Positions 3,826-62,570 of a DNA stretch of 64,000 bases are shown piece after piece. Location: positions 1,426,001 to 1,490,000 of the forward strand of contig NC_020156.1 of NCBI RefSeq assembly GCF_000332115.1, in the 5' to 3' direction. The stretch is from Nonlabens dokdonensis DSW-6 (GTDB lineage Bacteria > Bacteroidota > Bacteroidia > Flavobacteriales > Flavobacteriaceae). Position 1 is the first letter of the stretch. Each line of letters opens with the position of its first letter. A model generated the notes under the pieces. That model made no database searches, was not told where the DNA came from, and saw only the letters and a list, made by a program, of their open reading frames with translations. The position numbers were made by a program, and so were the translations under genes.

Positions 3826-4344
3826 ATGGCTGAAGAAATTATCAATCGAGTTGCAAACTCTAAGTTAAAAACTTTTGACTTAGAAGATTTTTACGTGCCA
3901 GGACCACGCACCTCGATAGACATATCTAAGTGGTTGCTAGAAGGTATTGTGCTGGTAGAATCCCGCTTTCGCGAAAGCTTAAAAACAACAGACTTCTCGA
4001 TTTATAAAGATCATTATGTAGTTATAAATTGTAGCACAGACGCTATCATACCGCAATGGGCGTGGATGCTTGTGCAAAGTCAGCTTCATGGAATTGCTAA
4101 AAAAGTTGTGGTAGGCACTCAAGAGCAACTAGAAACAGAATTGTACAGAGAAGTTATTTCTAACTTAGATGTAAGTGAATTCAAAGACATTCCGATGATT
4201 GTAAAAGGTTGTTCTAATAAACCAGTTCCTGTCGCTGCATATGCGATGATAACAGATAAGCTTCAAAGCGTTGCAAAGTCTATTATGTATGGTGAAGCAT
4301 GCTCTGCCGTTCCTGTATTTAAGAAGAAAAAGCAACTTTCTTAG
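3826..4344 (+). CDS. DUF2480 family protein
   Basis: A 172-residue protein resembling the Bacteroidetes DUF2480 family, commonly found at the end of sufE/sufT operons as it is here (two bases after sufT). Conserved-looking segments are FDLEDFYVPGPR near the start and a middle stretch with NCSTDAIIPQWAWML. The role is unknown; the context implies Fe-S metabolism. The codons at 3965-3978 are a copy of the iterated palindrome and encode RFRES in the segment VESRFRESLKTTD, which looks like an in-frame insertion in a variable loop. Confidence 0.8.
   Translation: MAEEIINRVANSKLKTFDLEDFYVPGPRTSIDISKWLLEGIVLVESRFRESLKTTDFSIYKDHYVVINCSTDAIIPQWAWMLVQSQLHGIAKKVVVGTQEQLETELYREVISNLDVSEFKDIPMIVKGCSNKPVPVAAYAMITDKLQSVAKSIMYGEACSAVPVFKKKKQLS
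3965..3978. repeat. iterated palindrome GCTTTCGCGAAAGC, copy 1
   Basis: Perfect 14-bp core; the outer right base is T instead of G, making this the only one of 15 copies without the full 16-bp form. It lies inside the DUF2480 gene and reads RFRES. Confidence 0.9.
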
Positions 4345-4445
4345 TCATTATGTCAGCTCAAATTACTGAAATTGCTGTGGCACATTCCTTGAAAACAATA
4401 TTTTATATTTCGAGAATGATCTCGTAATTACAAGCAACTCTATTT

Positions 4446-5162
4446 ATGTCATTTTTCGGCTATATCGCTATATTTTTTGTTCTTAGATGGATTTATAGCG
4501 CCTTCTTTAATGATAGCAATTCACAACAAAGAAGAACTTATTCTGGTGGAAGTCCTTATCAGCGCAGTACCAGCGTTAGTCCAGAAGACTTTGAACTACA
4601 CCTATTATCTCTGACCTCTTTAATTATAAAGGCAGATGGTAAAGTCACCCAAAGAGAACTAGACTATGTACGACAATATTTCGTTAGCTCTTATGGAAAA
4701 GAAAGAGCAAACGCCATATTTAAAGTTTTTAATGAAGTTGTTAAAAAGCGAGAAGTAAGTGCAGCACGTATCTGTAACTATCTTAACGCACGAACTCGTT
4801 ACGAGTCTCGATTGCAAATTCTTCATTTTCTATTTGGCATCGCTCAAGCAGATGGTCATGTTAGTGATCCTGAAGTTAGAATAATTCAGCAAATTGCAGG
4901 TTATTTGAGGCTTACAGAGCGAGATTTTATCTCTATAAAAGCAATGTTTGTAAAGGATCAAGATAATGCCTACAAGATCCTTGAAATTGATAAGTCTGTA
5001 CCAGATCATGAAGTAAAAAAGGCCTATCGAACTATGGCCAAAAAATACCATCCTGATAAACTTATGGACATGGATGAGGCGTACAGAAAAGGTGCTGAAG
5101 AGAAGTTTACAAAAGTCCAAGAAGCTTATGAAACAGTGCGCAAAGAGCGCGGAATGAGTTAG
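4446..5162 (+). CDS. TerB/DjlA-like co-chaperone with C-terminal J domain
   Basis: The 238-residue protein has an N-terminal membrane segment (residues about 3-18), a low-complexity Ser/Gln/Arg linker, a TerB-like helical domain (residues about 50-165, with IIKADGKVTQRELDYV and IAQADGHVSDPEVRII) and a C-terminal J domain with the HPD tripeptide in KKYHPDKLM. This is the DjlA architecture: a membrane-anchored J protein that stimulates DnaK. The 101 bases upstream contain a small hairpin (CGAGAATGATCTCG) and a weak promoter-like TATATTTCG. It is co-oriented with the suf genes but probably transcribed separately. Confidence 0.85.
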   Translation: MSFFGYIAIFFVLRWIYSAFFNDSNSQQRRTYSGGSPYQRSTSVSPEDFELHLLSLTSLIIKADGKVTQRELDYVRQYFVSSYGKERANAIFKVFNEVVKKREVSAARICNYLNARTRYESRLQILHFLFGIAQADGHVSDPEVRIIQQIAGYLRLTERDFISIKAMFVKDQDNAYKILEIDKSVPDHEVKKAYRTMAKKYHPDKLMDMDEAYRKGAEEKFTKVQEAYETVRKERGMS

Positions 5163-5200
5163 ATGATCTCACTTGAACGCTATTAGGTTTTTATAAATTG

Positions 5201-5208
5201 TATCTTTG
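5201..5208 (+). promoter_or_regulatory. -7 box TATCTTTG for the MNT/HEPN module
   Basis: TATCTTTG matches TAnnTTTG and ends four bases before the ATG of the nucleotidyltransferase gene at 5213, so the mRNA is probably leaderless. A possible upstream TTG (5173-5175) is 25 bases away, longer than usual. Confidence 0.5.
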
Positions 5209-5212
5209 ATAT

Positions 5213-5500
5213 ATGAAGTCTTCCATCAATAAAATTATCATAAAGGCATTGCAACCCTTTCACCCTAAAGAAATAGCAGTTTTTGGCTCCTATTCTCGTG
5301 GAACAAATTCTGCAACTAGCGATATAGATATTGTAGTGTCTTTTATGAACCGAATATCATTATTTGATATAGGTAAGATTTACGATGTTTTTGAAACTAA
5401 GTATAATTTGAAAATTGATCTCGTTCAAAAAGAAGCCATGAGTCCAGAGTTTGAAAAATCAATTTCTCAAGATCTAAAGTATATTTATAAAAGTGTCTAG
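5213..5500 (+). CDS. MntA-like nucleotidyltransferase antitoxin
   Basis: A minimal nucleotidyltransferase of 95 residues. The catalytic pattern GSX10DXD is exact: Gly25-Ser26 followed by ten residues, then Asp37-Ile-Asp39 (GSYSRGTNSATSDIDIVV). In characterised MNT/HEPN systems this antitoxin transfers AMP to a tyrosine of the HEPN ribonuclease and silences it. The gene overlaps the HEPN gene by eight bases, the expected antitoxin-first order. Nothing appears truncated, so it is probably active. Confidence 0.88.
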   Translation: MKSSINKIIIKALQPFHPKEIAVFGSYSRGTNSATSDIDIVVSFMNRISLFDIGKIYDVFETKYNLKIDLVQKEAMSPEFEKSISQDLKYIYKSV

Positions 5501-5840
5501 CGATTTTCACAAATTACAAAGTGCTCTCAAATCAATTCTCAAAATTGAATACTATACTAAAGATGTCACTTTTGAAGAATTCATTGATAATGAAGAAAAA
5601 GCAGACGCTACCTTAATTCATTTTGTAAATTTAGGCGAGCGTCTTTCTAGTCTATCAGAAGGTTTTCAAAAGCAACATGAGCAATTACCCTATTCAGAGT
5701 CTAGACAAATGAGAAATTTCATCGCTCATCAATACGATGCCATCCATAAAGTAACTATTTGGGAAACCATACAGAATGAACTACCGAAACTTAAAAATGA
5801 AATTCAAAAACTTCTTCAAGAAATAAATGAATCAAAGTAG
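5493..5840 (+). CDS. HepT-like HEPN ribonuclease toxin
   Basis: A 115-residue, all-helical HEPN (DUF86) protein starting at GTG 5493. The active-site motif RX4HXY is intact: Arg74 and His79 in RNFIAHQY, with Tyr81 the residue that the partner nucleotidyltransferase is expected to AMPylate. The toxin family cleaves RNA, including tRNA 3' ends. Its stop codon lies inside the 5' end of truB (14-base overlap), so toxin, antitoxin and a tRNA-modifying enzyme appear to be on one transcript. Confidence 0.87.
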   Translation: MSSDFHKLQSALKSILKIEYYTKDVTFEEFIDNEEKADATLIHFVNLGERLSSLSEGFQKQHEQLPYSESRQMRNFIAHQYDAIHKVTIWETIQNELPKLKNEIQKLLQEINESK

Positions 5841-6543: not shown

Positions 6544-6548
6544 TTTAA

Positions 6549-7022: not shown

Positions 7023-7056
7023 GAAAAATGGTTTCAGCAAATATAAAATCTTCTGC

Positions 7057-7986
7057 TTAAGAAACTAGGTTTAGTGTAACTGTAGTTCCCACTTCAACAG
7101 CTTTATTTGATTTAAAAAACACCTCTTTTCCATCCTTTAATCCTAAAATTAAAAAATCCTTTCCTTGATAAAAGGACTGCTTTACCTCAACATCAAATCC
7201 AGATGTAGCTCGCTCTAACTGATGCGGATAAAGAATCAAATCATGTTCTTTCCCCAGCCACTCTTTTGGAATGTCATTTACCTCATCAAACAGCGATGCT
7301 GTGTATAAACTCTTAGGCTTAGAATAAACTTTATTTGTAGCTCTATAATCAACTATTTCACCCTTTCTCATGATGATCGTGTTATGACAAAATGATAATA
7401 CATCATCACGATCATGTGTAGCAACTAGACAGCTTATATTATTCTTAGTGAGATAATCAAAAAGTCTTCTACGTAAAGCGTTTTTTCTAAAATTATCAAT
7501 ATGGGAAAAAGGCTCATCAAGAAGTAATAGTTTTGGTTCCTGTGCCAGCGCTTTTGCGATAGCTACACGTTGTTTTTGACCACCAGAAAGCGTTTTTACT
7601 TTTCTTTCCTTAAAATCACTCATGTCCACTACATCTAGCAACTCTTCAATACGCTTTGTACGATCGTCTATTTGAATAGAAAGATGTTCTCCCACGTTTT
7701 CAAAAACTGTGGTAAAAGGCATTAAATCAAATTCCTGCGGCACGTATTTCATCATGGGGTGCCCAGGCACTAAATGATGATCAGCTCCTAGCAATTCTTC
7801 ATCTTCCCATTTTACACTGCCCTTTTGTGATTGTAATAAACCATAAATAACGTCTAGCAATGTGCTTTTCCCGCAGCCGCTTTCTCCTATCACAGCAGCG
7901 TGTGTGCCCTGCTCTAGTTTTAAAGAAATATTTTTTAAGGTTTCCGCTTTCGCGAAAGCGAAACTAATATCAAGCAACTCTAACAT
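7057..7986 (-). CDS. ABC transporter ATP-binding protein
   Basis: A 309-residue ATPase with Walker A GESGCGKST (residues 34-42), Q-loop VPQEFD, signature LSGGQKQRVAIAKAL (from residue 133), Walker B LLLLDEP and switch ATHDRDD. About 70 C-terminal residues form a TOBE-like regulatory domain (LYPHQLERATSGFDVEVKQS), as in PotA/FbpC-type importers. No permease gene is adjacent, so the transported substrate is unknown. Residues 10-14 (AFAKA, in SFAFAKAETLKN) are encoded by the iterated palindrome, placed in the second strand of the domain. Confidence 0.88.
   Translation of the reverse strand: MLELLDISFAFAKAETLKNISLKLEQGTHAAVIGESGCGKSTLLDVIYGLLQSQKGSVKWEDEELLGADHHLVPGHPMMKYVPQEFDLMPFTTVFENVGEHLSIQIDDRTKRIEELLDVVDMSDFKERKVKTLSGGQKQRVAIAKALAQEPKLLLLDEPFSHIDNFRKNALRRRLFDYLTKNNISCLVATHDRDDVLSFCHNTIIMRKGEIVDYRATNKVYSKPKSLYTASLFDEVNDIPKEWLGKEHDLILYPHQLERATSGFDVEVKQSFYQGKDFLILGLKDGKEVFFKSNKAVEVGTTVTLNLVS
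7946..7959. repeat. iterated palindrome, copy 2
   Basis: Full 16-bp form spans 7945-7960. It lies in the 5' part of the ABC ATPase gene and reads AFAKA on the minus strand. Confidence 0.9.
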
Positions 7987-13324: not shown

Positions 13325-14443
13325 TTACTTAGATAAAGTGTCAATATAAACACGTCTTACTCGTTTTTGGATTCCGGTAAGTAATTCATAAGAAATAGTT
13401 CCGGCATCTTCGGCCATTTGCCTAGAGGTGTGAACTGTCTGGTCAAAAATCACGACTTCATCACCTACTTTTGCCGCTATTCCTGTAATATTTACCATGA
13501 ACATGTCCATACAAATAATTCCTAAAGTAGGAGCCGGTTTTCCATTTATAGAAACTTTGAGATTTCCATAACCATAAATACGATTAATTCCATCGCCATG
13601 ACCTAAAGGTATAACCGCATAAGTCGTTGGATCTTTTGCCACAAATTTACGGTTGTAACTTACCGTTTCTCCTGGTTCAATACTGCGTATTTGTGAAATG
13701 TTAGACTTTAAAGAACTGATAGGCTTCAACTGCGCATCATGCTTTGCATCATTACCAAAACCGTACAACCCAATTCCAGAACGTACCATTGTGTAATGCG
13801 CATTATTGTAGTTAAGAATACCACTGGTATTAGCTTCATGAAGTAAAAATTCATAATCCAGCTCTTTCTTTAAAATAGCTGCTATCGTTTCAAATTTGGT
13901 AATCTGTTGTTGGGTAAACTCTTCTTCATTTAAATCTTCACTAGCTGCAAGATGCGACTGCAGCCCGCGCACTTTTACTTCTGGACTGGATTTTACTATT
14001 CTTATAACTTCTTGAATGTCTTCTGGATCGATACCTATACGGTTTAAACCTGTATTAAATTCTAAATGTATAGGATAGGATTGTTGTTGTTTCGCTTTCG
14101 CGAAAGCGATAAAAGCATCCAGCATTTCCATACTATATATCACTGGTTCTAGACAACGATCTATGCAAATATCTAGATTGTGCTGTTGCGCGTGTAAAAT
14201 GAGAATAGGAGTAATTATACCGTTTTCTCTCAGTTCTTCACCTTCTTCTGTATATGCGGTGGCAAAATAATCGGTTCCTAAATCTTGTAATTTTTGTGCC
14301 ACTTTAACTATTCCATGACCATAGGCATTTGCTTTAACTACAGCCATAAATTTTGTAGTGTCGCTTATCCTGCTTTTAAGATAATGATAGTTGTGTGCAA
14401 GAGCATCTAAATTTACTTCAAGTCTAGTGCCTTTATGTTGCAT
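13325..14443 (-). CDS. alr: alanine racemase
   Basis: PLP enzyme supplying D-alanine for peptidoglycan. The 372-residue protein has the PLP lysine Lys37 in VVKANAYGHG, the PLP-contacting RSGIGLYGFG and the C-terminal domain residues GDGINR and ICMDMFMV with the conserved pattern around the second catalytic tyrosine. The iterated palindrome at 14094-14107 encodes AFAKA within LDAFIAFAKAKQQQSYP, a surface helix before the conserved HLEFNTGLNR strand. The gene starts one base after tdk ends and is presumably co-transcribed with it. Confidence 0.95.
   Translation of the reverse strand: MQHKGTRLEVNLDALAHNYHYLKSRISDTTKFMAVVKANAYGHGIVKVAQKLQDLGTDYFATAYTEEGEELRENGIITPILILHAQQHNLDICIDRCLEPVIYSMEMLDAFIAFAKAKQQQSYPIHLEFNTGLNRIGIDPEDIQEVIRIVKSSPEVKVRGLQSHLAASEDLNEEEFTQQQITKFETIAAILKKELDYEFLLHEANTSGILNYNNAHYTMVRSGIGLYGFGNDAKHDAQLKPISSLKSNISQIRSIEPGETVSYNRKFVAKDPTTYAVIPLGHGDGINRIYGYGNLKVSINGKPAPTLGIICMDMFMVNITGIAAKVGDEVVIFDQTVHTSRQMAEDAGTISYELLTGIQKRVRRVYIDTLSK
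14094..14107. repeat. iterated palindrome, copy 3
   Basis: Full 16-bp form at 14093-14108, inside alr, reading AFAKA on the minus strand. Confidence 0.9.
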
Positions 14444-17276: not shown

Positions 17277-17409
17277 TGCTTTGATTCTCTAAATCTAGTG
17301 AGATGATTTTCTTTTACTATTTCTTTAATGACAATTAACAAAGGTTTATAAAGTTCTACTCTTTCCCGAAAGCGAGATCAAAACAAATACTTTTATTAGT
17401 AATAAACTT

Positions 17410-19429: not shown

Positions 19430-22400
19430 TTAATTTACTAGAAGTTTCAAAGTTGTTTCTTCGCCATCATGAAGAACGGTAATAAGATATAAAGCCTTTG
19501 ACAAGTCGCTCATATCAAGTTCTAACTCTCCAGACTCCAAGGTAGTAAATTGATTTATTTTTTGACCTTGTAGATTTGATAATACAATTGTTTTTTCACC
19601 TATTCTACCACCTAGATCGATATAAATTTTATCTCCTATAACTGGATTAGGGTAAAGCTGTATCGCTTTCGCGAAAGCGAGATCATCACCTACACTCAAA
19701 GTACTGTTTCTAAACACAAGTTTGAAACGGTCGCTGGCCGTACTAGTCGAGTTGCTATCTACAGAAAATTGATAAGTGGTTGATTGATTGCTATCTAAAG
19801 CAGTAAGTGTATTAGTATAATTATCTTGCAAATAGGCCATTACACCGTTTAAATCTGTTGGCCTTACCACAATGGTATAGTTGCTATGCCTGAAGTTATT
19901 AATAAAGAGTTCAAGCTCCTCATTATTAGTTGGTAATGCACGTTGTTCTACGATAAATCTTTCTCCTGCTTTATTTCTCGCTATATTTTCATCTAAGTTG
20001 TATAGCTTTTTTGCATCTGCTGTTGTTGTGGAATTATCACCGTTTTGATCAAAACTTACTAAAAGTCCGTCGAGAGATTCCTGCCCATGGTTGTATGCAT
20101 TCTGTTCGTATAATTGTAGGTCGATATTTCCTAAACTGGAATTACTGACTATTGAAGGGCCAGAAGGTCGTAGAGCTGTGTTAGAATCCCTTCTTAAGAT
20201 AGCGTTACCATTTGTAACTCCAGATGCAACTAAGAATACTGCTTGACCTGGCTTTATAATTCCTGGAACATAATCGCTTCCAGCAACACTAGCACCAATA
20301 AGAGTATTGAGCGACCTACTATAAGTTCTGTATGAGCCACGGCTGTTTCCCATAGGGTCCCATATATAATAAAAGTCAGGATTTAAAGCCGTTAAATCAG
20401 TACTGGTTGCGTTGAACAAAGCATTAAGTTCACTTGCTATATCGAGATTACTCTGGTAGGGATTTGTCACAATAGTGTACTCACCACTATTAGCAGCTAC
20501 AGTAGGTAAAGTGAAATCAGAATTGAGCAAGGCTCCTTTCATGCGCAAAGTTGTAGAAGATGAGCTGGCATTACTACTAAGATCTATTGTTCTATCACCT
20601 CTTATCATTAACCTAAAATAATCTCCTGCAGTCAATACATCTGCAGATAAGTTAGTAGAGGATTGGGAAGTCCACATTTGATTTAGATTTGACCAACTAA
20701 ACATAGAAAGGTTGTTAGTGGCAGTTGGATCAAAACCATTTGCTGGCGCACTTGGTCCAGTTATATGAGTACCATAACCACTTTCAAAGCCTGCATCACC
20801 TGGATTCAATCCACCTTGTTGTAGATTGTCGAATATGGTCGTAGAAGTGGTTACTGGAATACTTAGGAATCTATAAGCCCTGCGGTTTTGATAATATCGC
20901 TCTACGGTTACATCGCCCTGAATGACAATCTGCCCACCTTCTATAACTGCGGTACCACTAACATCACTTTTAAAGGTCAGGTCAGCATTGGTAAGGTCGA
21001 GCGTGGAGCTGCTCACATTATCGTCATTAGTGATGGCCTTGGTAATGTTAAGTGTACCGTTTAAATTAATCCCGGCATTTTCAGGTTGAAATGTACCTAA
21101 TGTACCATCAAGGTTCCAGCTATTTGCAGGGATTTGTCCGATCGCTATAATCTTTGCATCACTTGCGTCTAAATCAAGGTCACAGTTATTATATATCTCA
21201 ATTTGGCTACCAGCGGTCAAGCTCAATGTCGCATTATTTTCAACGGTCAGATCATATGCGCTAAAACTTCCATTCACCGCCACATTTTCTCTTATGATGA
21301 CCGTATCACCTGATCCAGATGGATTAACAGAGTCAGTAGGATCATTAGGTGTCCACGTACTGTTCTCATAAACAAAATTTTGTGGTATAGTGACTTGTAC
21401 TGCCACTCTATTGCTCGTTGAGCCCAGGTTTAATTTTTTCAATTGAGAATCATTAACAAAGTATATCTCACCATTGTCGGTTACTGTAATGTCCCTTGCA
21501 ACTTCATTAATGAGCGTTCTATTATTGGTCCCATCTGGGTTCATAATACCAATTGAGGCTCCAGCGCTATATAGCAACTGGCCTGAGTTATCAAATTCAA
21601 TATTTCGTGCAGGGATCAAGGCAATGTCCACAAGGTTGTTGCCCTGAGGATCCATTTTTTGAAGGATATTCATGTCTTGCGAGGTAATAAAAATATCACC
21701 ATCGGGAGCGACAGCAACTCTTCGTGGATTGTAGGGAAGCGTGGCTAACGTAGCTGTTACTGTGCCGTTTGGAGCCATCTTTATTATTGAAGAATTGAAT
21801 GTGTCAGCAATTATAAAGTCTCCATTACCATCAATTGCAATTCCTAAACCAAAGAAATTTTGGGAACCAAGGACTATTTCGTTCATTCCGTTAGAATCAA
21901 TCCTTAAAACTCCGGATTCTCTAGTTGGCATATAGATAAAACCAGCAGCATCAACAGCTGCGTCATTAAAACCTACATAATCTACGTCGTCATCAATAAA
22001 TAACAATGTTGTATTCCCAAGTGCATCTACACGATATACTTCAGCCCCTAAATCCCAACAAGGCACTATAAAGTTACCTTGATTGTCTTCAGCAAGACCT
22101 TGAATGTTTTGAGGAACGGCAGCAATAACCGAAGAAGTAGTTGTGGTACCTTGCTGCACATAGTAAGTTCCAGAAGTTAAAAGATCTGTATCAGGTAATG
22201 CTGTACCACCAGATGTCATATCGTACCAAGTTGCAGTTGCACCTGCTGTAGGTGTAGCTATTAAATCAACCACCGTATCTCCGTGCGCAGCGATTTGGTT
22301 TGCATTTGCTATTTCATTTACTGGTATTGCTAAGCGGTCTGTACTTTCAACACCATTAGAGACCTGAGCCGCAAAAACAGTAGTGCCTGTGGTAAATGTG

Positions 22401-27115: not shown

Positions 27116-27177
27116 GTTCTTATTTTTATACTTGTTTCAATGATCTTTTTATAGATCGTATTGTTTATAATTACACC

Positions 27178-27191
27178 GCTTTCGCGAAAGC
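27178..27191. repeat. iterated palindrome, copy 5
   Basis: Full 16-bp form at 27177-27192, in the gap between atpH and atpA. It could form a cruciform or an intercistronic hairpin in the operon mRNA. Confidence 0.9.
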
Positions 27192-27212
27192 GGAACACTT
27201 AAAAATTAATTA

Positions 27213-29765: not shown

Positions 29766-29868
29766 GTAATACACCTTAAAAAGTTAGGTTCTTTAATTCG
29801 CGTGCAAATGTACGACAAAAAAGAATCTAAAAAACAGCCTTTTTCTTGTATTTTTTTTTGAGGTAATT

Positions 29869-33329: not shown

Positions 33330-33564
33330 AAAGTAGGGTTTAGACTAAAGTGTATAACTCTTAATACCGCATTAATATTGTAAAAGTTGGTAAAAATAAG
33401 AATTTTTTATTTTCAAGACTGTCTTATAAGTAACTCATGACTTATTTAGCTAGCAATATAGAATAATAACAGACCGTTAAACATTTGAATAGGAATAATC
33501 TTTGAACTATTTTACACAACTGTTACACATCGTTTTTGATGTATTTTCTATCTTAATTTCATAT

Positions 33565-36500
33565 ATGAAGTACTTTTTTACAATACTAACTGGTCTATTT
33601 TTTTTACAACTTACTAATTCACAAACAGATAACAGTCTCCTGTGGGAAATTACTGGAAACGGCTTAGAAGAACCTTCCTATTTATATGGTACTATGCATG
33701 TAAGCAGCAAAGTTGCCTTTAGGTTAGATGATGTGTTCTTTGAATCGTTAAAAAAAGTAGATGCAGTAGCATTAGAAAGTGATCCTACACAATGGATGGA
33801 CGAATATTATAGCGAGCAAATCTTATCTGTTCAGAATATGTCTGGATCCTACCGTTCTTCTTTTTATGAAGATTTATTCAAGTTAGAACATCCGCCACTT
33901 CAAATGGTACGTTCAAGCATAAGAATGAATGATATGGCATTAAACGGTTATTTATATCGTAAAAATGGCGCCTCTGATAATTTTGAAGAAGAGACCTATC
34001 TAGACATGTTTATTTTTCAAGCCGGAAAAAAAGCTGGTAAACCCATCATAAGTCTAGAAGACTTTAATGAATCTCAATACCTTACATCAAAAGCAGCTAC
34101 AAACCCATCTAAAAAAGAGATTGATCAATGGCTGGAAGAGCGGCTAGAAAAAGAAAATAGGTACACGATTCAAGAAAATGTCTATAGAGATCGCAATATT
34201 TCTTTGCTAGACTCTATAGGAGCTGCAACAAATACGGAGTACTTTAGAAAAAACATGTTGTACGATCGCAATGAGAATATGGTGGTTGTAATGGACTCTG
34301 TTATGAAAACTCAGACCATATTTGCTGGAGTAGGCGCTGCACACTTACCTGGCGAGCAAGGAATGATACAAATGCTGCAAGACAAAGGTTACACCGTAAA
34401 AGCGCTAACATCTGAGCAAACAGAGCTTGCTAAAAAAGAAAAAAAGAATTTAGACGAGAGTTTTGTGGCTCCTACGCTTTCGCGAAAGCGTACACCTGAT
34501 CAATTTCTTTCCCTTAAAACTTTTGACAACCTAAGAGAATTTAGCATGGGGAATCAGTCTTTCTATATGATTCCCGAAATGACTAATGGTGCTTATTTAA
34601 CCATTTCTAGAATTAACACGCTAGATTACCTTCCTACCGAAAAGAAAAAAATAGATCTGGATTTTGTCGATAATATTTTATTTGAAGATATTCCTGGAGA
34701 AATTATAGAAAAAATAGAATTGACCGCACCATATCCTGGCTATTCTATTTTGAACAAAACAAAAAAGAGAGATTATCAAAAATATCATATTTATAAAACA
34801 CCTCTTGAGTTAGTGATCATCAAATTTGGAGGAAAGTTAGATTTTGTAAAGCAATACGAGCAAGAGATTTTTAGCTCCATAGAGTTTTTACCTAACAGTG
34901 AAAAGTTGAGCACCTTTAAAGCGCCTTATAATAAATACAGCATGTTATTTCCAGAACATGCAGTAGCAAATAACCTTGAAAATCCTGGTAAAACTCTACT
35001 ACAAGGAACTGATGGTACTTCTTTTTACTTTTTCCAAGAAGCTCCCATTTTTGACACAGAGTATGTAGAGGAAGATAAATTTGAAGCTCAGTTTATAGTG
35101 GAAGAGTTTGTAAATGAACTGGAATATGAGATAGAAAAAGGAGCTGTAAAAAAACAACCTTATTACAGTTACCGAGCTACTGTAATCATGGATAGTGTGC
35201 TTAAAACTCAGTTAGAACTCAAGTCTATAGTAAAGGATGGTAGTTATTATTTAATGGGTTACACTGGTGACAATCAAGAAAAAGCTGACGCCTATTTTAA
35301 TTCTATAAAGTTCAATACCATTGCATACGATGATTTTAAAACGGTGCAGGATACTGCGATGTTTTTTAATGTTAAAAGTCCAGTAAAGGCTCCTATGTCT
35401 AGAAGGAGATTTTCACGAGATGATCAGAAGGATTATGAAGAGAAAGAAAAGTATTCTTTCTATACCACTCCATCAAACGAGCAAATTGAAGTAAAAATGA
35501 CCAAGTTTCATGACCTTCAAATGTTTCACAAACCAGAAGATTTATGGGAACATGTGGATGATAATGACTGGTCTGACATGAAATTGTACCGTAGCAACCT
35601 AAGAGCAAAAGACAAAGAAAAAGAGCAAAAAGGAGCGATTTATACCTATAATAGAACATTTAAAGATAGCCTTAGTTCCAAGCATATTCTTGCAAAAGAT
35701 GTGTACTATAAAGGCAGGTTGTACCATCTCAAAACGGTTATTGATAGCACAAAACAACCGTCTAAATTTGTTGAAGAATTTTATGCTAGTTTTTCTCCTC
35801 AGGATACTATGGTAGGTAAAGATGTATTTGAAGATAAAACAGCTCTTTTCTTTGAAGGAGTAAAAGAAAAAGATACACTAGTCTTTGAAGCAAATGATAA
35901 GGTGAAGTTTAAAACTAAGGATATATCTCAAATGATAGACCTTATAAACACTGTAGATTCAGATGATGCCTCTCTCAAAGATGTGAGAGAATATACTTTA
36001 GAAGAGTTGATAGATTTAAAGGATAACCGAGTGCTTCCTTTTATAACAAGCCTTTATGAATCGTCCTATAACGATCCAGATGTGCAGCTGGTCATACTGA
36101 GAAAGTTGCTTCGTAAAAAAACTACAAGTACTCATGAAAAAGTATTGGATCTGTTAGAAAAAGATTTGCCTTTAAAAAAGTCTGGAATTTCTAATGCACT
36201 TAATAGTTATGGTGATTCTTTACGATTATCTGCAAAATTATTTCCTGACTTGCTTACTTATGCTTCCATAAGCGAATACAAATCTCCTGTTTATGAACTA
36301 CTTGCAAAAGTTAAAGATTCTGGATTTGTAAAGAAAAAAGTGTACAAAAAGTACCGTAAGCAAATCATCACCGACGGAAAGATCGAAATTAAAAGAACGC
36401 TAAGTGCGAGAAAAACAAGTTATAACAATAATAGTAATGATCTTTTAAGTGATTATGTAAAACTCATATTTCCATTCCGTAAGGATAGAAGCGCTCAAGA

Positions 36501-38421: not shown

Positions 38422-38442
38422 CATGAACTTCTTTTTGATTCC

Positions 38443-38456
38443 GCTTTCGCGAAAGC
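38443..38456. repeat. iterated palindrome, copy 8
   Basis: Full 16-bp form at 38442-38457, between the DUF5687 permease gene and its ATPase gene. Confidence 0.9.
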
Positions 38457-38500
38457 GAAACTAAAAAGAAAGCGAGATCATTAAAATCTTTATTTAACTG

Positions 38501-40062: not shown

Positions 40063-41106
40063 ATGATTTTTCATCATCTTACTATAAAACAAGTTACTAA
40101 AGTTACTTCTCAAGCGGTAGAAGTGGTTTTTGAGATTCCAGAAAACCTATCTGCAGAGTTTACTTATCAAGCTGGACAGTACTTAACTCTTAAAGCCACT
40201 ATTAATGAAGAAGAGGTGCGTCGCGCCTATTCTCTTTCTAGTGCACCGCATGAAACCGATTTAAAAGTAGTTATTAAAGCGGTGGAAAAAGGTGTTTTTT
40301 CTAATTATGCGATGACCTTACGAGCTGGAGATCAATTAGAAGTTGCTGCTCCAGACGGGCTTTTTATCCATGAGAAAAGCGATACTGCTCAAAATTATTT
40401 AATGGTTGCAGCAGGAAGTGGTATCACTCCTATTACTTCTATCATAAAAGACGTGCTTACTAATGAGTCCGACAGTAAAGTGGCTTTGATCTATGGAAAT
40501 CAATCGGTAGCACAAACCATTTACCACGAGCAGTTTAATGATCTAAAAGATCAATATGGTGACCGTTTTATACTGCAATATTGTTTCTCCCGTGAAGAGC
40601 GCGATGAGGCACTTTTTGGTCGTGTGAGTAAGTCCAACCTCAACTATTTCTTGAAACAGAAAGTTAGTGATCTCGCTTTCGCGAAAGCGTACTTATGTGG
40701 ACCTGAAGAAATGATTACGATGGCAACAGACAATCTTGTTGAAAAGGAAGTTCTTGCTAAAGAAGACGTAAAATTTGAGCTTTTCACAGCCAAAGAAAAT
40801 GAGATCGAGATCACTGAAGACAGTCACCTTACCGAGCTTACTGTCATTCTTGATGACGAAAAACACACACTTACAGTAAAGCGTACCGATAATTTACTAG
40901 ACGTGATGCTTAAAAATGACATCGACGCACCGTACAGTTGTCAAGGCGGTATTTGTAGTTCTTGTATTTGCCAGATAGAAGAAGGAACGGCACAAATGGC
41001 AAAAAACGCCATCTTAACCGATAGTGAAATCGCTGACGGACTTTCTCTTGCCTGTCAAGCTTATGCCACCAGTGCAAAAGTTGTGGTGAATTTTGATGAG
41101 GTGTAG
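40063..41106 (+). CDS. PaaE-like flavin/2Fe-2S oxidoreductase
   Basis: The 347-residue protein carries three modules: an FAD-binding barrel with RAYSLSSAP (residues about 56-64), an NAD(P)-binding domain with AAGSGITPI and YLCGPEEM, and a C-terminal plant-type 2Fe-2S ferredoxin with cysteines in SCQGGICSSCICQ and LACQA. This is the PaaE/Hcr layout, the electron-donating reductase of a diiron oxygenase or similar. The usual paaABCD genes are not adjacent, so the partner is unknown. The palindrome at 40675 encodes AFAKA in DLAFAKAYLCGP, just before the conserved GPE. Confidence 0.9.
   Translation: MIFHHLTIKQVTKVTSQAVEVVFEIPENLSAEFTYQAGQYLTLKATINEEEVRRAYSLSSAPHETDLKVVIKAVEKGVFSNYAMTLRAGDQLEVAAPDGLFIHEKSDTAQNYLMVAAGSGITPITSIIKDVLTNESDSKVALIYGNQSVAQTIYHEQFNDLKDQYGDRFILQYCFSREERDEALFGRVSKSNLNYFLKQKVSDLAFAKAYLCGPEEMITMATDNLVEKEVLAKEDVKFELFTAKENEIEITEDSHLTELTVILDDEKHTLTVKRTDNLLDVMLKNDIDAPYSCQGGICSSCICQIEEGTAQMAKNAILTDSEIADGLSLACQAYATSAKVVVNFDEV
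40675..40688. repeat. iterated palindrome, copy 9
   Basis: Full 16-bp form at 40674-40689, in the PaaE-like gene, reading AFAKA on the plus strand. Confidence 0.9.
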
Positions 41107-44183: not shown

Positions 44184-44332
44184 AATTACATTTATTTGGT
44201 TTAAAAATACGGAATTTACCGAGTATTTTAAAGGCTTATCGATAACTAAAAGCTAGTTATTTTACTAAATTGCTATTTCATATAGATTCAAGACCGTCGC
44301 ACTGAATGATTCAAGAATCAAGATTACTTATC

Positions 44333-44968
44333 ATGGCTTTTAAACACCTTATTGATCCCAAATTCAGTAAAAACAATTACTTCCCTATTGACTTATCAAT
44401 TAAGAACCCTTTTTGGGATGATAATGACGTGAGTGATATCGACATTTTTGAAAAATATTTAGATAACCAGCGGTCCAAAACCGGCAAATATATCGCTCAT
44501 GGCGGTTATTTAGAACAGCGTGCTTTGTATAGAAAATCGGCTAGGTTCCAGGCTGGACTGGTGCGCGATGTTCATATGGGAATAGATCTTTGGGCGCCAG
44601 CTGGTACAAGCGTTCATGCATTTATGGATGGTGTAGTACATAGTTTTGCAAACAACGATGACGATGGGAATTATGGACCTACCTTGATCTTAGAACATGA
44701 TTTCAACGGTAAACAACTCTATACACTTTACGGTCATCTCGCAATTAGTGATATGGAAAACTGGTCTGTTGGTTCTCGCTTTCGCGAAAGCGACATCATA
44801 GCAACCTTAGGAAAACCAGAAGAAAACGGAGGATACAGCCCACATCTTCATTTTCAAATAATGACTAATATTGGGGAATATAAAGGCGATTATCCAGGTG
44901 TTGCTGCACAAGAAGAGTTGCAGGATTATGAAGGATTGATTTTGAATCCCAATTCTTTAATTTTTTAG
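44333..44968 (+). CDS. M23 (LytM-type) metallopeptidase domain protein without signal peptide
   Basis: Start at ATG 44333 (44306 also possible). The 211-residue protein has the zinc-binding pattern of M23 peptidases: first His/Asp in VRDVHMGIDLWAPAG, then LYTLYGHLA and HLHFQ. No signal peptide or membrane segment is visible, which is odd for a peptidoglycan hydrolase; it may act in the cytoplasm, on another substrate, or by unusual export. The palindrome at 44778-44791 encodes RFRES in VGSRFRESDIIATLG, between the LYGH and HLHF motifs. Confidence 0.82.
   Translation: MAFKHLIDPKFSKNNYFPIDLSIKNPFWDDNDVSDIDIFEKYLDNQRSKTGKYIAHGGYLEQRALYRKSARFQAGLVRDVHMGIDLWAPAGTSVHAFMDGVVHSFANNDDDGNYGPTLILEHDFNGKQLYTLYGHLAISDMENWSVGSRFRESDIIATLGKPEENGGYSPHLHFQIMTNIGEYKGDYPGVAAQEELQDYEGLILNPNSLIF
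44778..44791. repeat. iterated palindrome, copy 10
   Basis: Full 16-bp form at 44777-44792, in the M23 gene, reading RFRES on the plus strand. Confidence 0.9.
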
Positions 44969-47415: not shown

Positions 47416-48188
47416 TGGAGCTTGTTTCTATCATAATGCCTACTTACAACAGCGTTGCAACGGTTAAGGAGTCACTTGATAGTATTTTATCTCAAACTTA
47501 TAGACCTCTAGAAATTATAATTATTGACGATTGTAGTGAAGATGAAAGTCTCGCTTTCGCGAAAGCGTACGCATCAAATAACGCTTCTAGTGAAGTAAGT
47601 TTTATCACTTTAAAAAACTCCTCAAACGCCGGTGCAGGAATTACTCGCAACAAAGGAGTAGAAGCCGCAACAGGAACCTACATAGCCTTCCTAGATGCAG
47701 ATGATCTATGGAAGCCTAAAAAGCTAGAAATACAAATTGAGGCTATGAAATCACAAAATGCAGTGGCTTGTTATGGAGCTTATGAGATATTTTCAACATC
47801 GCCAGAACATCCAGAACAGATCCATCATGTTTTTGAAAAGCTTACTTTCAAAAGACTTTTAAAGGCTAATTACCTAGGCAACCTTACGGGAATTTATAAC
47901 GCTCAAAAATTAGGCAAATTTTACATGCCTGCTTTGCGTAAAAGGCAAGACTGGGCAATGTGGCTAGATGTTTTAAAAAAAGCAGATTATGCCATAGGTA
48001 TTCAAGAGCCGATCGCAAGTTACCGTTTAAGTGAAGGACTTTCTGCAAACAAGTTTGATTTGATTAAGTATAATTATGCTGTTTATAGAACTCATTTAGG
48101 ATATTCTGCAATAAAAAGTACGGTTTTGATGGTGCGCTTTTTTTATGAGCAGTTTTTAGTAAAAAATAGATTGAAAGTAAATGTTTAA
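47415..48188 (+). CDS. family 2 glycosyltransferase
   Basis: A 257-residue GT-A enzyme starting in a TAATG overlap with the previous gene. It has VSIIMPTYNSVATVKESLDS, IIIIDDCSEDES, GAGITRNKGVEAATG and the DAD motif in FLDADDLWKPKKLE. It probably adds a sugar to the lipid-linked chain begun by the upstream phosphotransferase. The palindrome at 47553-47566 encodes AFAKA in SLAFAKAYASNN, just after the nucleotide-binding DD. Confidence 0.92.
   Translation: MELVSIIMPTYNSVATVKESLDSILSQTYRPLEIIIIDDCSEDESLAFAKAYASNNASSEVSFITLKNSSNAGAGITRNKGVEAATGTYIAFLDADDLWKPKKLEIQIEAMKSQNAVACYGAYEIFSTSPEHPEQIHHVFEKLTFKRLLKANYLGNLTGIYNAQKLGKFYMPALRKRQDWAMWLDVLKKADYAIGIQEPIASYRLSEGLSANKFDLIKYNYAVYRTHLGYSAIKSTVLMVRFFYEQFLVKNRLKVNV
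47553..47566. repeat. iterated palindrome, copy 11
   Basis: Full 16-bp form at 47552-47567, in the family 2 glycosyltransferase gene, reading AFAKA on the plus strand. Confidence 0.9.
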
Positions 48189-50132: not shown

Positions 50133-51401
50133 ATGAATGTTCTTATTTTAGGAAGCGGTGGCCGTGAGCACGCTTTTGCACACTCAATTATTAAAAGTTC
50201 CCTACTGTCTAAGTTATTTGTTGCTCCAGGAAATGCTGGGACTGATCAAATAGCTACTAATGTAAATCTAGGAATAACTGATTTTGCTGCCATAAAAACA
50301 TTTGTATTAGAGAATGATATTGAAATGCTTATCGTAGGTCCAGAAGCGCCGCTTGTGGATGGTATTTATGACTTTTTTCAAAGCGATGACTTAAAACATG
50401 TTAATGTCATAGGCCCGTCAAAAGAAGGTGCTGTTCTTGAAGGTTCTAAAGAGTTTGCTAAAGAGTTTATGCAACGCAATAACGTGCCTACTGCGGCTTA
50501 CAAAAGCTTCACAAAAGAAACCCTTAAGGAAGGAATGGCCTTTATAGATACCTTAAAACCGCCGTTTGTACTCAAAGCAGATGGACTTGCAGGAGGAAAA
50601 GGAGTTCTTATCATTCCAGATGCCAAAGAAGCTAAGGAGTCTCTTGAAGAAATGTTAGTAGGTGGCAAATTTGGTGCAGCATCAAATAAGGTAGTGATAG
50701 AAGAGTTTTTATCTGGAATAGAGATGAGCGTTTTTGTGATGACAGACGGTAATTCTTATAAAGTGATGCCTACCGCAAAAGATTACAAACGCATAGGAGA
50801 AGGCGATACTGGATTAAACACTGGCGGAATGGGCGCCGTGTCACCGGTTCCGTTTGCAGATGATCTTCTAATGCAAAAAATTGAAGATCGAGTTATAAAA
50901 CCTACCATTGAAGGTTTCAAAAAGGAGAACATCGTCTATAAGGGCTTTGTATTCATAGGCCTCATGATTGTGGATGGTGAGCCAGAAGTGATCGAGTATA
51001 ACGTAAGAATGGGCGATCCAGAGACTGAAGTTGTATTGCCTCGTATTTCTAGCGATTTGTTGAGTCATTTGCACGCTTTCGCGAAAGCGGAACTACACAA
51101 AGAACATCTCAACATAGATTCTAGATACGCCACAACTGTAATGTGTGTTGCAGGCGGTTATCCAGAAGCTTATGAAAAAGGTATGGAAATTATAGGTTTA
51201 GAAAATGTAGTAGACAGCATTGTTTTTCATGCTGGTACTGCAATAAAAGAAGGGAAGATTGTGACTAATGGAGGACGTGTTATGGCTGTAACCAGTTATG
51301 GAACTGATTTCAAACAGGCACTAAAAAAATCTTATCAAAATGTAGAAAAACTACAATTTGATAAGATGTATTATAGAACTGATATAGGTTTTGACCTATA
51401 A
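50133..51401 (+). CDS. purD: phosphoribosylamine-glycine ligase
   Basis: Second step of purine synthesis (ATP-grasp). The 422-residue protein has MNVLILGSGGREHAFAHSI, VAPGNAGTDQIA, FVLKADGLAGGKGVLI and EYNVRMGDPETE, and is full length. The palindrome at 51075-51088 encodes AFAKA in LHAFAKAEL, in the region after the DPETE motif, so it is tolerated in an essential enzyme. Confidence 0.97.
   Translation: MNVLILGSGGREHAFAHSIIKSSLLSKLFVAPGNAGTDQIATNVNLGITDFAAIKTFVLENDIEMLIVGPEAPLVDGIYDFFQSDDLKHVNVIGPSKEGAVLEGSKEFAKEFMQRNNVPTAAYKSFTKETLKEGMAFIDTLKPPFVLKADGLAGGKGVLIIPDAKEAKESLEEMLVGGKFGAASNKVVIEEFLSGIEMSVFVMTDGNSYKVMPTAKDYKRIGEGDTGLNTGGMGAVSPVPFADDLLMQKIEDRVIKPTIEGFKKENIVYKGFVFIGLMIVDGEPEVIEYNVRMGDPETEVVLPRISSDLLSHLHAFAKAELHKEHLNIDSRYATTVMCVAGGYPEAYEKGMEIIGLENVVDSIVFHAGTAIKEGKIVTNGGRVMAVTSYGTDFKQALKKSYQNVEKLQFDKMYYRTDIGFDL
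51075..51088. repeat. iterated palindrome, copy 12
   Basis: Full 16-bp form at 51074-51089, in purD, reading AFAKA on the plus strand. Confidence 0.9.
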
Positions 51402-53233: not shown

Positions 53234-54265
53234 ATGCCACTTCCTAAACGCATTCTCGTCATTAGACTAAGCGCTATGGGCGATGTTACCATGTGCGTGC
53301 CCGTTTTACTGGCTTTAAAAAGAGACTATCCTGAGGTGGAAATAGTTGCGCTTTCGCGAAAGCGATTCCAATCCATTCTAGAATACATTCCTGACATTAG
53401 GTTTATAGAAGCAGATGTAGATGCAAAACACAAAGGAATCTCTGGTCTCTACCGACTTTCAAAAGAGATAAAGGCTCAAGAAATTGATGCAGTAGCTGAC
53501 TTTCACAATGTCTTACGCAGTAAGATTCTAAGAACATTTTTAACAGGAATTCCTAAAGCTAAAATAGATAAAGGAAGATCAGACAAAAAGCGCCTCGTAA
53601 ATGATCCAAACTTTTTTCAACCCTTAAAACATAGTACAGAACGCTATGCAGATGTTTTGCGAGAATTAGGTTTTAAGATCGAATTAAAAGGAAATGAATT
53701 TTTATCAAAAGAGGCTGTTTTACCTCAAATTCATGATAAAATAGGCCGAAAAACATCAAAATGGGTAGGTTTTGCTCCATTTGCTGCTCATAAGACAAAA
53801 GCGCTCACAGTTAAAAAAGCTAAGAAAATAGTACAAGCCATTGCAAAAAATGAGCAGGTAACTATTATCCTTTTTGGTGGTGGGAAAAAAGAAGAAAAAC
53901 AATTGCAAATAGTTGCTGGTACTACAACAAATGTGATCAATCTAGCTGGACTAACCAGTTTTGAAAATGAGCTGACGATTATGTCTCAATTAGATGCAAT
54001 GATAGCAATGGATAGCGGTAATGGCCATCTTGCGGCATTGTATGGTGTTCCAGTAATTACATTATGGGGAAATACGCATCCTTACGCTGGTTTTGCTCCT
54101 TACGGTCAACCAAAGGAAAATCAATTGACCGTAGATAGGAAGAAATATCCATTAGTTCCTACTTCTATTTTTGGGAATAAAGTAGTGAAAGGTTACAAGA
54201 AAGCGACGAGTTCTATCAAAGTGAAAGCTGTTGTTGATAGGTTAAATGAGGTGTTGAAGTCTTAG
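53234..54265 (+). CDS. family 9 glycosyltransferase (heptosyltransferase-like)
   Basis: A 343-residue GT-B enzyme with ILVIRLSAMGDVTMCVPVLL at the start, GFAPFAAHKTKALT in the middle and AMDSGNGHLAALYGVPVITLWG near the end, the family 9 acceptor and donor motifs. It probably transfers heptose or another sugar to lipopolysaccharide core. The palindrome at 53350-53363 encodes LSRKR in VALSRKRFQSIL, in the segment after the first beta strand. Confidence 0.92.
   Translation: MPLPKRILVIRLSAMGDVTMCVPVLLALKRDYPEVEIVALSRKRFQSILEYIPDIRFIEADVDAKHKGISGLYRLSKEIKAQEIDAVADFHNVLRSKILRTFLTGIPKAKIDKGRSDKKRLVNDPNFFQPLKHSTERYADVLRELGFKIELKGNEFLSKEAVLPQIHDKIGRKTSKWVGFAPFAAHKTKALTVKKAKKIVQAIAKNEQVTIILFGGGKKEEKQLQIVAGTTTNVINLAGLTSFENELTIMSQLDAMIAMDSGNGHLAALYGVPVITLWGNTHPYAGFAPYGQPKENQLTVDRKKYPLVPTSIFGNKVVKGYKKATSSIKVKAVVDRLNEVLKS
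53350..53363. repeat. iterated palindrome, copy 13
   Basis: Full 16-bp form at 53349-53364, in the family 9 glycosyltransferase gene, reading LSRKR on the plus strand. Confidence 0.9.
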
Positions 54266-60481: not shown

Positions 60482-60610
60482 CAAAATAGAGCAGGAATTA
60501 ATGGTTAATAGGTAATTTCCTTAAAGTTATAGAAACTTGTTGAAGAACAATCTTATAACGTTAAATAATTTTAAAATATTTTGGAAAGAAAGTTTATGTT
60601 TGGTTTTTCC

Positions 60611-60624
60611 GCTTTCGCGAAAGC
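60611..60624. repeat. iterated palindrome, copy 14
   Basis: Full form with the outer CCGC/GCGG at 60609-60626, in the gap upstream of the macroglobulin gene and 62 bases before the promoter box at 60686. Confidence 0.9.
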
Positions 60625-60664
60625 GGAAAAGAATAAGTTTGATTACGAATTAAGTAATCTTTAA

Positions 60665-60693
60665 TTGTTAAGATTATGAAACAATTATCTTTG
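60665..60693 (+). promoter_or_regulatory. Bacteroidetes promoter (TTG, 18-base spacer, TATCTTTG)
   Basis: TTG at 60665-60667 and TATCTTTG at 60686-60693 give an 18-base spacer, within the usual 17-23. It is the best complete promoter in the window and drives the gene at 60717. Confidence 0.65.
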
Positions 60694-60716
60694 AAAGAAG
60701 TAAAAAGGCATTCTAA

Positions 60717-61391: not shown

Positions 61392-61400
61392 ATACAATCT

Positions 61401-61604: not shown

Positions 61605-61783
61605 ACATGTTGTTTGTTGCTCTAAAACTAAATATAAAGTCCGCCATCAGCTTCAAAGAAAGTCAAGAAAAACACCTCACATATCAAGGCTTAGCATTTT
61701 CTCTTCCTTAAAACTTGCATCACATCCACCACTCCTGAATTTATCCCAGCTATCGCTGCAAGAGCTAAATATATAAATACCGT

Positions 61784-61805
61784 CTTCGACAAGCTCAGAC
61801 TGACA
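61784..61805. repeat. partial CTTCGACAAGCTCAGACTGA repeat
   Basis: Half of the long inverted repeat type seen at 42249, without a matching arm nearby. Confidence 0.5.
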
Positions 61806-61831
61806 TTTCTTTTTCAATTAAAAATTAAAAA

Positions 61832-61867
61832 TTTCCAAAAGGTAGAATTAATTCTACCCTTCGGAAA
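61832..61867. repeat. 37-bp hairpin repeat, copy 3
   Basis: Best conserved copy: GGTAGAATTAATTCTACC is a perfect central palindrome, with TTTCC/GGAAA ends. It follows the small gene pair and precedes the end of the TPR gene. Confidence 0.8.
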
Positions 61868-61892
61868 TCAAAATAAACATTTGAGAATCAGA

Positions 61893-62510
61893 TTATTCTC
61901 CACATTCCTTTTTGGCATCGAGAGCTCCTTTTTTGCCCCAGCGAGGTTGAAAACCTTCTACGGTTTCTTTTTCAAATAATGCGATGGCTTTATCAATCTC
62001 ACCGCAATATGGAGCGATATCTTTCCCAAAGAATTTTGCACTACCCATTAACCATCTTGCTCTGTTTGCTATGACTCTTGGGTTTTCTGGTGCGATTTGT
62101 ATCGCTTTTTCATATAGTGCGGTAGTCGGACCAGATAATTTCATTCCGTAAACGCGGCTGTCATAAGTGATCCAGCAAGTATTTAACATGCCTTGCAATA
62201 CCATTATTTCTGGATTGTTTTCTGATATTAACTCTGCATCATTAATAAATTCTTGAGCTTTGTTCATGTGTTGCAAGGTTTTTTCTTTAGGCAATTGTCC
62301 CCAGGAACTGTTCACGTTGCACAAGGCTGCATAATACGCTGGTAGCCAGTTTTCTTTTTCGGCTTTTGCAACACGTTCAAATTGTTGTGATGCGGCTTGT
62401 AAGTCAGTTTTCATTAGTTCTAGTCCTTTTTTCATGGCTTTTTCATAGCCCGATTGTGCCGTAAGACTTAGTGATAAAAGGAGTACAAAAGTGGTGATTA
62501 TAGTTTTCAT
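61893..62510 (-). CDS. TPR-like exported protein
   Basis: Start set at ATG 62510 for its signal peptide (MKTIITTFVLLLSLSLTAQ). The 205-residue protein has helical TPR-like pairs (LAxxxFERVAKAEKENWLPA, ALYEKAIQIAPENPRVIANR) and two conserved cysteines (PYCGEIDKAI, KKECGE). Function unknown. It follows a TonB-dependent receptor gene on the same strand with a palindrome in the gap. Confidence 0.75.
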   Translation of the reverse strand: MKTIITTFVLLLSLSLTAQSGYEKAMKKGLELMKTDLQAASQQFERVAKAEKENWLPAYYAALCNVNSSWGQLPKEKTLQHMNKAQEFINDAELISENNPEIMVLQGMLNTCWITYDSRVYGMKLSGPTTALYEKAIQIAPENPRVIANRARWLMGSAKFFGKDIAPYCGEIDKAIALFEKETVEGFQPRWGKKGALDAKKECGE

Positions 62511-62556
62511 GAGTAAGCGTTTAATTGATTTATGATACAATGATAGTGGCGATCTC

Positions 62557-62570
62557 GCTTTCGCGAAAGC
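62557..62570. repeat. iterated palindrome, copy 15
   Basis: Full 16-bp form at 62556-62571, between the receptor gene and the TPR gene. Confidence 0.9.

Follow-up and report, generated by a model that had tools for sequence, protein, structure and literature searches.

The genome of Nonlabens dokdonensis DSW-6 carries 737 exact copies of a 16-bp palindrome, CGCTTTCGCGAAAGCG, which forms the centre of a dyad of about 50 bp. The copies are evenly spaced, arise by substitution rather than insertion, and hold conserved positions among related genomes, and the motif is concentrated in three of the sampled genera. Such a tag, unchanged amid drifting sequence, suggests a putative genome-wide reader protein, perhaps for recognising the cell's own DNA. 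The interpretation that we prefer, with confidence somewhat short of even, is that of a palindromic DNA-uptake (self-recognition) sequence.

Copy number and distribution

The window (the whole 64-kb stretch of DNA analysed) contains 14 exact copies of CGCTTTCGCGAAAGCG and 15 copies of its 14-bp core (Table 1), each core lying exactly where the sequence-only reading had placed it; the remaining core, at 3964-3979, has T as an outer base and hence no full 16-mer. Allowing up to three mismatches brings the count in the window to 19, whereas 100 dinucleotide shuffles average 0.16. In a 464-kb host sample (20 stretches plus the window), 90 exact copies were observed, where a motif-masked third-order Markov model predicts 4e-6. 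Genome-wide, the inner 12-mer is present in 879 copies, while a reversed control sequence yields none. Single-mismatch copies are rare in the host (labelled G000 in comparisons of sampled stretches), numbering 5 versus 90 exact, outer base pair aside. Two degenerate copies had also been proposed in the window: the one at 17359 is probably a decayed site, as its right flank still scores 12.8 (left flank -2.9; random mean -7.0, 99th percentile 3.9), but the one at 56733 (-4.2 and -2.0 on the same scale) has no site-like flank on either side. Neither the Rfam scan nor the tRNA scan gave a match in the window.

Table 1. Sites of the palindrome in the window
Site	Position	Strand	Location and encoded peptide
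14-bp core, outer T for G	3964..3979	.	ORF 3826-4344, RFRES
Exact 16-mer	7945..7960	.	ORF 7057-7986 (-), AFAKA
Exact 16-mer	14093..14108	.	Alanine racemase ORF 13325-14443 (-), AFAKA
Probable decayed site, 2 mismatches	17359..17374	.	Intergenic; right flank still site-like
Exact 16-mer	19664..19679	.	ORF 19430-23641 (-), T9SS sorting domain protein, AFAKA
Exact 16-mer	27177..27192	.	Intergenic, near sprE
Exact 16-mer	31422..31437	.	sprE/porW ORF 30711-33329 (-), AFAKA
Exact 16-mer	34475..34490	.	ORF 33502-37023, LSRKR
Exact 16-mer	38442..38457	.	Intergenic
Exact 16-mer	40674..40689	.	PaaE-like oxidoreductase ORF 40063-41106, AFAKA
Exact 16-mer	44777..44792	.	ORF 44306-44968, RFRES
Exact 16-mer	47552..47567	.	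Glycosyltransferase-like ORF 47415-48188, AFAKA
Exact 16-mer	51074..51089	.	purD ORF 50133-51401, AFAKA
Exact 16-mer	53349..53364	.	ORF 53234-54265, LSRKR
Exact 16-mer	60610..60625	.	Intergenic
Exact 16-mer	62556..62571	.	Intergenic

The copies are neither confined to the window nor close in number to the Markov expectation: they occur throughout the host genome and in every genome searched of Nonlabens (23) and Dokdonia (18), at 138-737 exact copies each, in agreement with the earlier description of the motif as an iterated genome signature. One genome of a third genus has 153 copies, and the remaining sampled Flavobacteriaceae have at most 13 each. In 20-40-kb stretches from nine site-poor genomes of eight genera, the motif's own 12-mer aside, no palindrome of that length was found three or more times.

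No earlier description of the motif was found in the open-licence literature; most subscription papers lie outside that scope, and a prior description is possible. There the exact 16-mer had no match as a query, and, judging by titles and the beginnings of abstracts, the inner 10-mer gave only matches without a link to these bacteria, and none of the topical matches listed describes the motif. It goes unmentioned in the Dokdonia donghaensis genome announcement (PMC4974333).

Anatomy, spacing and origin of the sites

The element is larger than first noted, its base preferences extending outwards from the centre for about 26 bp. Its flanks are A-rich, G-poor and symmetric, and their preferences are genus-specific, forming dialects. 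Codon wobble was rejected as the source of this pattern, as the main positions are equally strong or stronger at intergenic sites in the host and in Dokdonia (the comparison for the third genus comprises only 6 intergenic sites). Flanks, dialects, even spacing and positional conservation all extend beyond what the sequence-only reading had covered.

The left and right flanks do not covary, and there is no pairing excess beyond the core, indicating a site for a protein on double-stranded DNA rather than a hairpin. A function at the RNA level, as bidirectional terminators or hairpin processing signals, could draw on the ability of the core to pair with itself and on the enrichment of sites between genes (44 of 107, with about 10% of bases intergenic). 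However, no excess of pairing extends past the core, most sites are inside coding sequence (63 of the 107 sampled), and convergent-gene gaps hold no clear excess (9 of the 42 intergenic sites typed in the host versus 8,031 of 42,845 intergenic bases), and we regard such a function as very unlikely.

The 12-mer has a density of about one per 4.5 kb, and close pairs are scarce. Only 1 of 89 intervals in the host is shorter than 1 kb, whereas a null that preserves the coding or intergenic class of sites averages 21.1 such intervals and in 1000 runs never drops below 11; the corresponding values are 0 of 39 versus 9.4 (lowest 3) in Dokdonia and 0 of 25 versus 4.5 in the third genus, where the lowest null value is also 0 and the difference is not extreme. 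Gene layout was therefore rejected as the cause of even spacing, the class-keeping null giving far more close pairs in the host and Dokdonia.

Sites arise by substitution where codons tolerate change, and cores persist at orthologous places while the adjoining flanks diverge. Of 21 Nonlabens genomes, host included, 18 have the 14-bp core of sprE/porW at identical codons. The exact 16-mer at 27177..27192 recurs in 14 of the 21 (again counting the host), at much the same distance from sprE and with diverged flanks, and all five copies of the gene corresponding to ORF 33502-37023 that were found among 21 stretches, the host's among them, retain the core. In the PaaE-like gene the core is present in 9 of 20 copies, including that of the host, and 7 of the remaining 11 encode AFAKA via other codons.

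The site-free orthologues of sprE and the PaaE-like gene carry substitutions or synonymous codons at the place in question, and no empty insertion site, so that an origin by insertion was rejected on the codon alignments and the mobile palindrome suggested initially is not supported. A REP- or MITE-like palindrome that duplicates and is spread by a transposase would explain many identical copies within one genome, but it is scarcely credible given that no segment is missing at the core from the site-free orthologues, that the copies have only a statistical flank preference in common, and that so many of them lie in coding sequence. The motif resembles REP and BIME elements in being a short palindrome repeated through the genome; REPs, however, lie outside genes and owe their movement to RAYT transposases, while the present sites are mostly coding and bear no insertion signature.

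Known site systems and the candidate readers

HIP1 of cyanobacteria (GCGATCGC) is likewise a highly iterated perfect palindrome of a defined lineage. The present motif is neither GCGATCGC nor a cyanobacterial alternate, belongs to another phylum, and differs in that its unit is 14 bp long and has flank preferences extending some 26 bp either way from the centre. As HIP1 is tied to methyltransferases in the available text of PMC4390886, the element might owe its existence to an orphan DNA methyltransferase that acts on a sequence inside it and serves repair or replication. That explanation is improbable, and the earlier suggestion of a methylase site is thereby disfavoured: outside the 14-mer, TCGCGA occurs 30 times versus 37 expected and TTCGCGAA 5 times versus 4.8 expected, and no methylase of the two families searched is consistently present. 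Among 25 site-rich genomes, C5-methylases were found in 13 and N6/N4-methylases over the cut-off in 10, and neither family exceeded the cut-off in 7, including genomes with 680 and 711 copies.

The main rival to uptake, possible though in our view doubtful, is a site for a cytoplasmic protein of nucleoid organisation or segregation, evenly spread to anchor or space domains, with each copy kept by selection. A long perfect dyad is typical of an intracellular homodimer site, and the preferences over about 50 bp fit such a protein; even spacing against the class-keeping null in the host and Dokdonia, the very small number of degenerate copies, and the presence of sites with site-like flanks on certain phage contigs, one of which has an integrase, point the same way. 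The sites of Noc, SlmA and matS are similarly dyad-symmetric, dispersed over the chromosome and probably read by dimeric proteins, but these number tens of copies and are regionally biased, whereas the present ones number hundreds, are even, and, one gap apart, occur in the window as well as in all 20 sampled stretches. A ParB or Noc paralogue was rejected as the reader, since no such protein is peculiar to site-rich genomes: ParB_N matches are single in 8 of 9 of these and two in the ninth (G005), while counts of two or three also occur in 4 of 13 site-poor genomes. Selection would, moreover, be required at about 700 separate sites per genome.

For the uptake sequence that we prefer, the following course is envisaged. 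A two-fold symmetric protein, putatively a competence receptor, would bind the site on free double-stranded DNA, touching its 14-bp core and, for about 26 bp either side of the centre, its A-rich flanks, and would bend these flanks, promoting DNA entry; the DNA would then cross ComEC single-stranded and recombine. Site-bearing alleles, being taken up more often, would overwrite site-free ones, keeping the core exact at tolerated places, and a second site near an existing one would add little uptake per fragment, leaving about one site per 4-5 kb. We infer the protein, flank bending, uptake and biased recombination as the sustaining force from the density of sites and their concentration in one lineage, from symmetric flanks without covariation and with genus-specific preferences, and from even spacing, intergenic excess and substitution origin in tolerant codons. 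Also in favour of uptake, Nonlabens phages P12024S/L have no match within 3 mismatches, and the core is missing over some 91 kb that include NRPS/PKS genes. ComEC, found in 24 of 24 genomes tested, is consistent with it too, but is widespread (10 of 14 control genomes) and so necessary at most.

The motif is like the DUS of Neisseriaceae and the USS of Pasteurellaceae in its hundreds of copies within one lineage, dialects between relatives, non-coding excess with many ORF copies, and even spacing; USS flanks are A/T-rich, a further likeness. It differs in its perfect 14-16-bp palindrome, symmetric flanks, few mismatched copies and 12-mer density. Over-representation, comEC and an excess at non-coding or tolerant positions are shared, but the non-palindromic, oriented form is not, and because of the perfect dyad with symmetric flanks we describe the motif as DUS/USS-like without classing it as a member.

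According to the available text of PMC1939737, Haemophilus and Neisseria uptake sequences combine a non-coding excess with many copies within ORFs, and are evenly spaced (cited there from Karlin et al.). The same text gives known uptake sequences as non-palindromic and argues that they are less even than a compaction role needs; the present motif is palindromic and very even, and both points count against uptake. So does the scarcity of single-mismatch copies, perhaps too sharp to result from uptake drive by itself, and so do the sites on phage contigs and a transferred efflux gene (12 genomes), whose sites are retained about equally in recipient genera and hosts, the groups not being separated. 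A phage protein search led to two records of Cellulophaga phages, both distant, and one site region used as a query against plasmids gave no match. Within the same family, the sources as available report natural competence without a pilus in Riemerella anatipestifer (PMC8459023) and a preference for own DNA in R. columbina (PMC7965970); on the opposing side, Flavobacterium johnsoniae was non-competent under the conditions tested (PMC7965970), and the literature searched reports no competence in Nonlabens or Dokdonia.

Implications

We consider it rather probable that this marine Flavobacteriaceae lineage possesses an evenly spaced, genome-wide code of dyads of about 50 bp, with flank dialects at the genus level and a putative dimeric reader, representing either the first palindromic uptake code in Bacteroidota, served by pilus-free machinery, or a chromosome spacing system with several hundred anchors. 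Were the motif an uptake code, a sequence-specific receptor could be sought in the pilus-free competence machinery of Flavobacteriaceae, and gene flow among marine Bacteroidota could be traced by means of the tag; were it a chromosome-organising system, it would be denser and more regular than those familiar to us. Under either reading the site can be used directly as bait to isolate the putative DNA-binding protein, and the motif adds an independent case to the question of what maintains iterated genome motifs, drive or selection.

Copy number and taxonomic distribution

The sequence-only reading had placed 15 copies of a 14-bp palindromic core in the window, and its coordinates agree exactly with the sequence; the full 16-bp palindrome (the site) is present in 14 of them. 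In 464 kb, comprising the window and 20 stretches spread over the chromosome of N. dokdonensis DSW-6 (G000), all of which contain sites, we counted 90 exact copies versus 4e-6 expected from a third-order Markov model with the motif masked. The entire genome (3,914,632 bases, one contig) carries 737 exact 16-mers and 879 copies of the inner 12-mer CTTTCGCGAAAG, and the reversed control motif yielded 0 copies across it.

Within Flavobacteriaceae, Nonlabens has 180-737 exact copies per genome (n=23) and Dokdonia 138-711 (n=18). In a family draw of 397 genomes from 237 genera, 48 had any match, and beyond these two genera many copies were found only in G211 (153), the sole genome drawn from a third genus, with the remaining genera having 13 or fewer per genome. 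Counts of the 12-mer in 239 family genomes (235 genera) were 879 and 586 in Nonlabens, 917 in Dokdonia, 445 in G211 and no more than 19 elsewhere; at the class level (198 genomes), they did not exceed 10 outside G000. Of the 80 matches listed for named genome contigs, 67 come from Nonlabens, Dokdonia or Flavobacteria bacterium BBFL7; each of the remaining 13 has a single site. Iterated genome motifs are a known kind of feature, and, to our knowledge, the present form is undescribed in the open-licence literature searched.

Anatomy and placement of the element

Of 110 cores sampled in G000, 91% retain the outer base pair of the 16-mer. Their flanks are rich in A and poor in G, with A contents of 78, 74 and 61% at positions 4, 10 and 13 from the 14-mer, respectively, and this preference dies away some 26 bp from the centre. 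Left and right flanks of 118 sites exhibit the same preference and no covariation, and at the main flank positions intergenic sites are equally strong or stronger. Single mismatches outside the outer pair number 5 versus 90 exact copies in G000, 2 versus 38 in Dokdonia and 2 versus 11 in the third genus, in which changes of the outer pair are tolerated more. Outside the 14-mer, the inner hexamer TCGCGA and octamer TTCGCGAA occur at chance (30 vs 37 and 5 vs 4.8 expected), and the small-number enrichment of the longer words TTTCGCGAAA (5 vs 0.6), GCGAAAGC (11 vs 4.2) and CGAAAGCG (11 vs 2.8) is as expected from partly decayed sites. The preference next to the core is purine-A-A in G000 and T-A in Dokdonia G227. 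A flank profile trained on G000 sites scored above zero on both sides at 66% of 90 sites from other Nonlabens, at 9 of 10 from Dokdonia and at 2 of 9 from the third genus, where flanks are weaker. Symmetry without covariation, together with the flank preferences and conservation, makes a dyad protein site on double-stranded DNA a well-supported interpretation.

Simple ORF-based gene calls class 63 of the 107 sampled G000 cores as coding and 44 as intergenic, although predicted ORFs cover about 90% of bases. Of the coding cores, 34 are read in the frame that yields the peptide AFAKA. No interval shorter than 1 kb was found among 98 between the first 100 listed G000 sites (16 expected; one interval >20 kb left out), and 2 of 91 were found in G001, another Nonlabens genome (17 expected; two intervals left out). 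Under a null preserving coding/intergenic class, even spacing was confirmed for G000 and Dokdonia, and was not decisive for the third genus. The palindrome, its sharpness and its evenness fit the site of a nucleoid protein at least as well as DNA uptake, and we regard such a function as possible, though somewhat less likely than uptake. One stretch lacks the exact 16-mer over 94 kb; the core is absent over about 91 kb of it, since a near-copy (core with a single outer-base mismatch) sits some 3 kb in from one end. The annotated parts of this stretch carry NRPS and PKS genes near the middle, with other genes lying to one side.

Features discussed in the text
Feature	Sequence	Coordinates	Strand
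sprE ORF	window	30711-33329	-
Site in sprE	window	31422-31437	
PaaE-like ORF	window	40063-41106	
Site in PaaE-like ORF	window	40674-40689	
Gene resembling an exchanged allele	window	28563-29774	
94-kb stretch without exact sites (L201-L205)	G000 C1	131677-225871	
sprE match, split or with stop codons	G003 C1	~1227446-1230039	
sprE match, split or with stop codons	G020 C25	433814-436413	
DNA methyltransferase, P12024S	L240	32699-33376	
DNA methyltransferase, P12024L	L241	18039-18674	

Histories of individual sites and copies in other genera

Syntenic stretches from 20 further Nonlabens genomes were compared; the other two, G012 and G020, were left out for fragmentary matches. Counting G000, 18 of 21 genomes have the sprE core at identical codons, with protein identities to G000 of 53-90% among those compared; G015, G018 and G021 lack it through substitutions, the core itself showing no insertion, and G018 has a core at another place in the gene. 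The codons directly upstream vary in length. In the PaaE-like gene, where inserts in G002 and G011 open the alignment at the site, the core is present in 9 of 20 genomes, and 7 of the remaining 11 encode AFAKA by other codons. The site near window position 27177, its placement judged from distance rather than gene-by-gene alignment, is found as an exact 16-mer in 14 of 21 genomes, at a roughly constant distance from sprE, has one mismatch in three, two in one and three in one, and is absent in G016 and G013 (shorter stretch, different offset); its flanks differ widely between clades. A neighbouring gene (see table) is 87% identical to its G011 counterpart but only 56% to that of G004, a close relative in which the other seven genes compared are 86-100% identical, and it looks like an allele exchange. 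The sprE matches in two genomes are split or have stop codons.

Small clusters of copies in other genera recur with unchanged spacings and flanks, and at the two annotated loci they lie inside or adjoining efflux genes, in the neighbourhood of genes for multicopper oxidase or cation transport. A search of 19 Nonlabens genomes with the G165 efflux protein gave 81-86% identity in several, only a weak match in G001 and none in three; identity to the Dokdonia G227 protein is 83%. In efflux-type stretches from other genera, 25 of 27 sites have site-like flanks on both sides. Of the 13 other listed loci, 12 (all but L064) hold 13 sites, and only 2 of these have such flanks; one of the two lies in an Aquimarina locus that shares the efflux flank sequences. 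These data suggest inter-genus transfers, with the direction taken from the genera in which sites are common. Loci L206-L216, from other Flavobacteriaceae genera, contain efflux genes with a few tags in genera otherwise having few or none.

Candidate readers, phages and function

No reader protein emerged from searches of the ParB_N, ComEC and methylase families. ParB_N was found in all 22 genomes tested, as a single match in 8 of 9 site-rich genomes (two in G005) and as two or three in 4 of 13 site-poor ones, and ComEC in all 24. Of 25 genomes, 13 have C5-methylases, 10 have N6/N4-methylases over the cut-off, and 7 have neither over it.

Phages P12024S and P12024L (35.7 kb each), isolated on Persicivirga sp. 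IMCC12024, listed as Nonlabens phages and having no annotated integrase, gave 0 matches within 3 mismatches. Both carry an annotated DNA methyltransferase, in different places. On viral contigs, 29 of 62 sites (duplicates included) have site-like flanks on both sides; one contig carries an integrase and another baseplate and tail-type matches. Since this search returned motif-bearing contigs only, it gives no frequency of such phages. L165, L197 and other IMG/VR phage contigs, with matches to integrase, baseplate or tail proteins, have several sites each, some with site-like flanks.

In the same family, Riemerella anatipestifer reportedly has pilus-free natural competence (PMC8459023), and R. 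columbina a preference for its own DNA (PMC7965970). These reports, together with lineage-restricted occurrence, flank dialects, placement at tolerant positions, regular spacing, the two site-free phages and the long core-free stretch, fit a reading of the element as a DNA-uptake sequence; the role of the protein is one that we infer, and we put this reading, tentatively, at a little short of an even chance.
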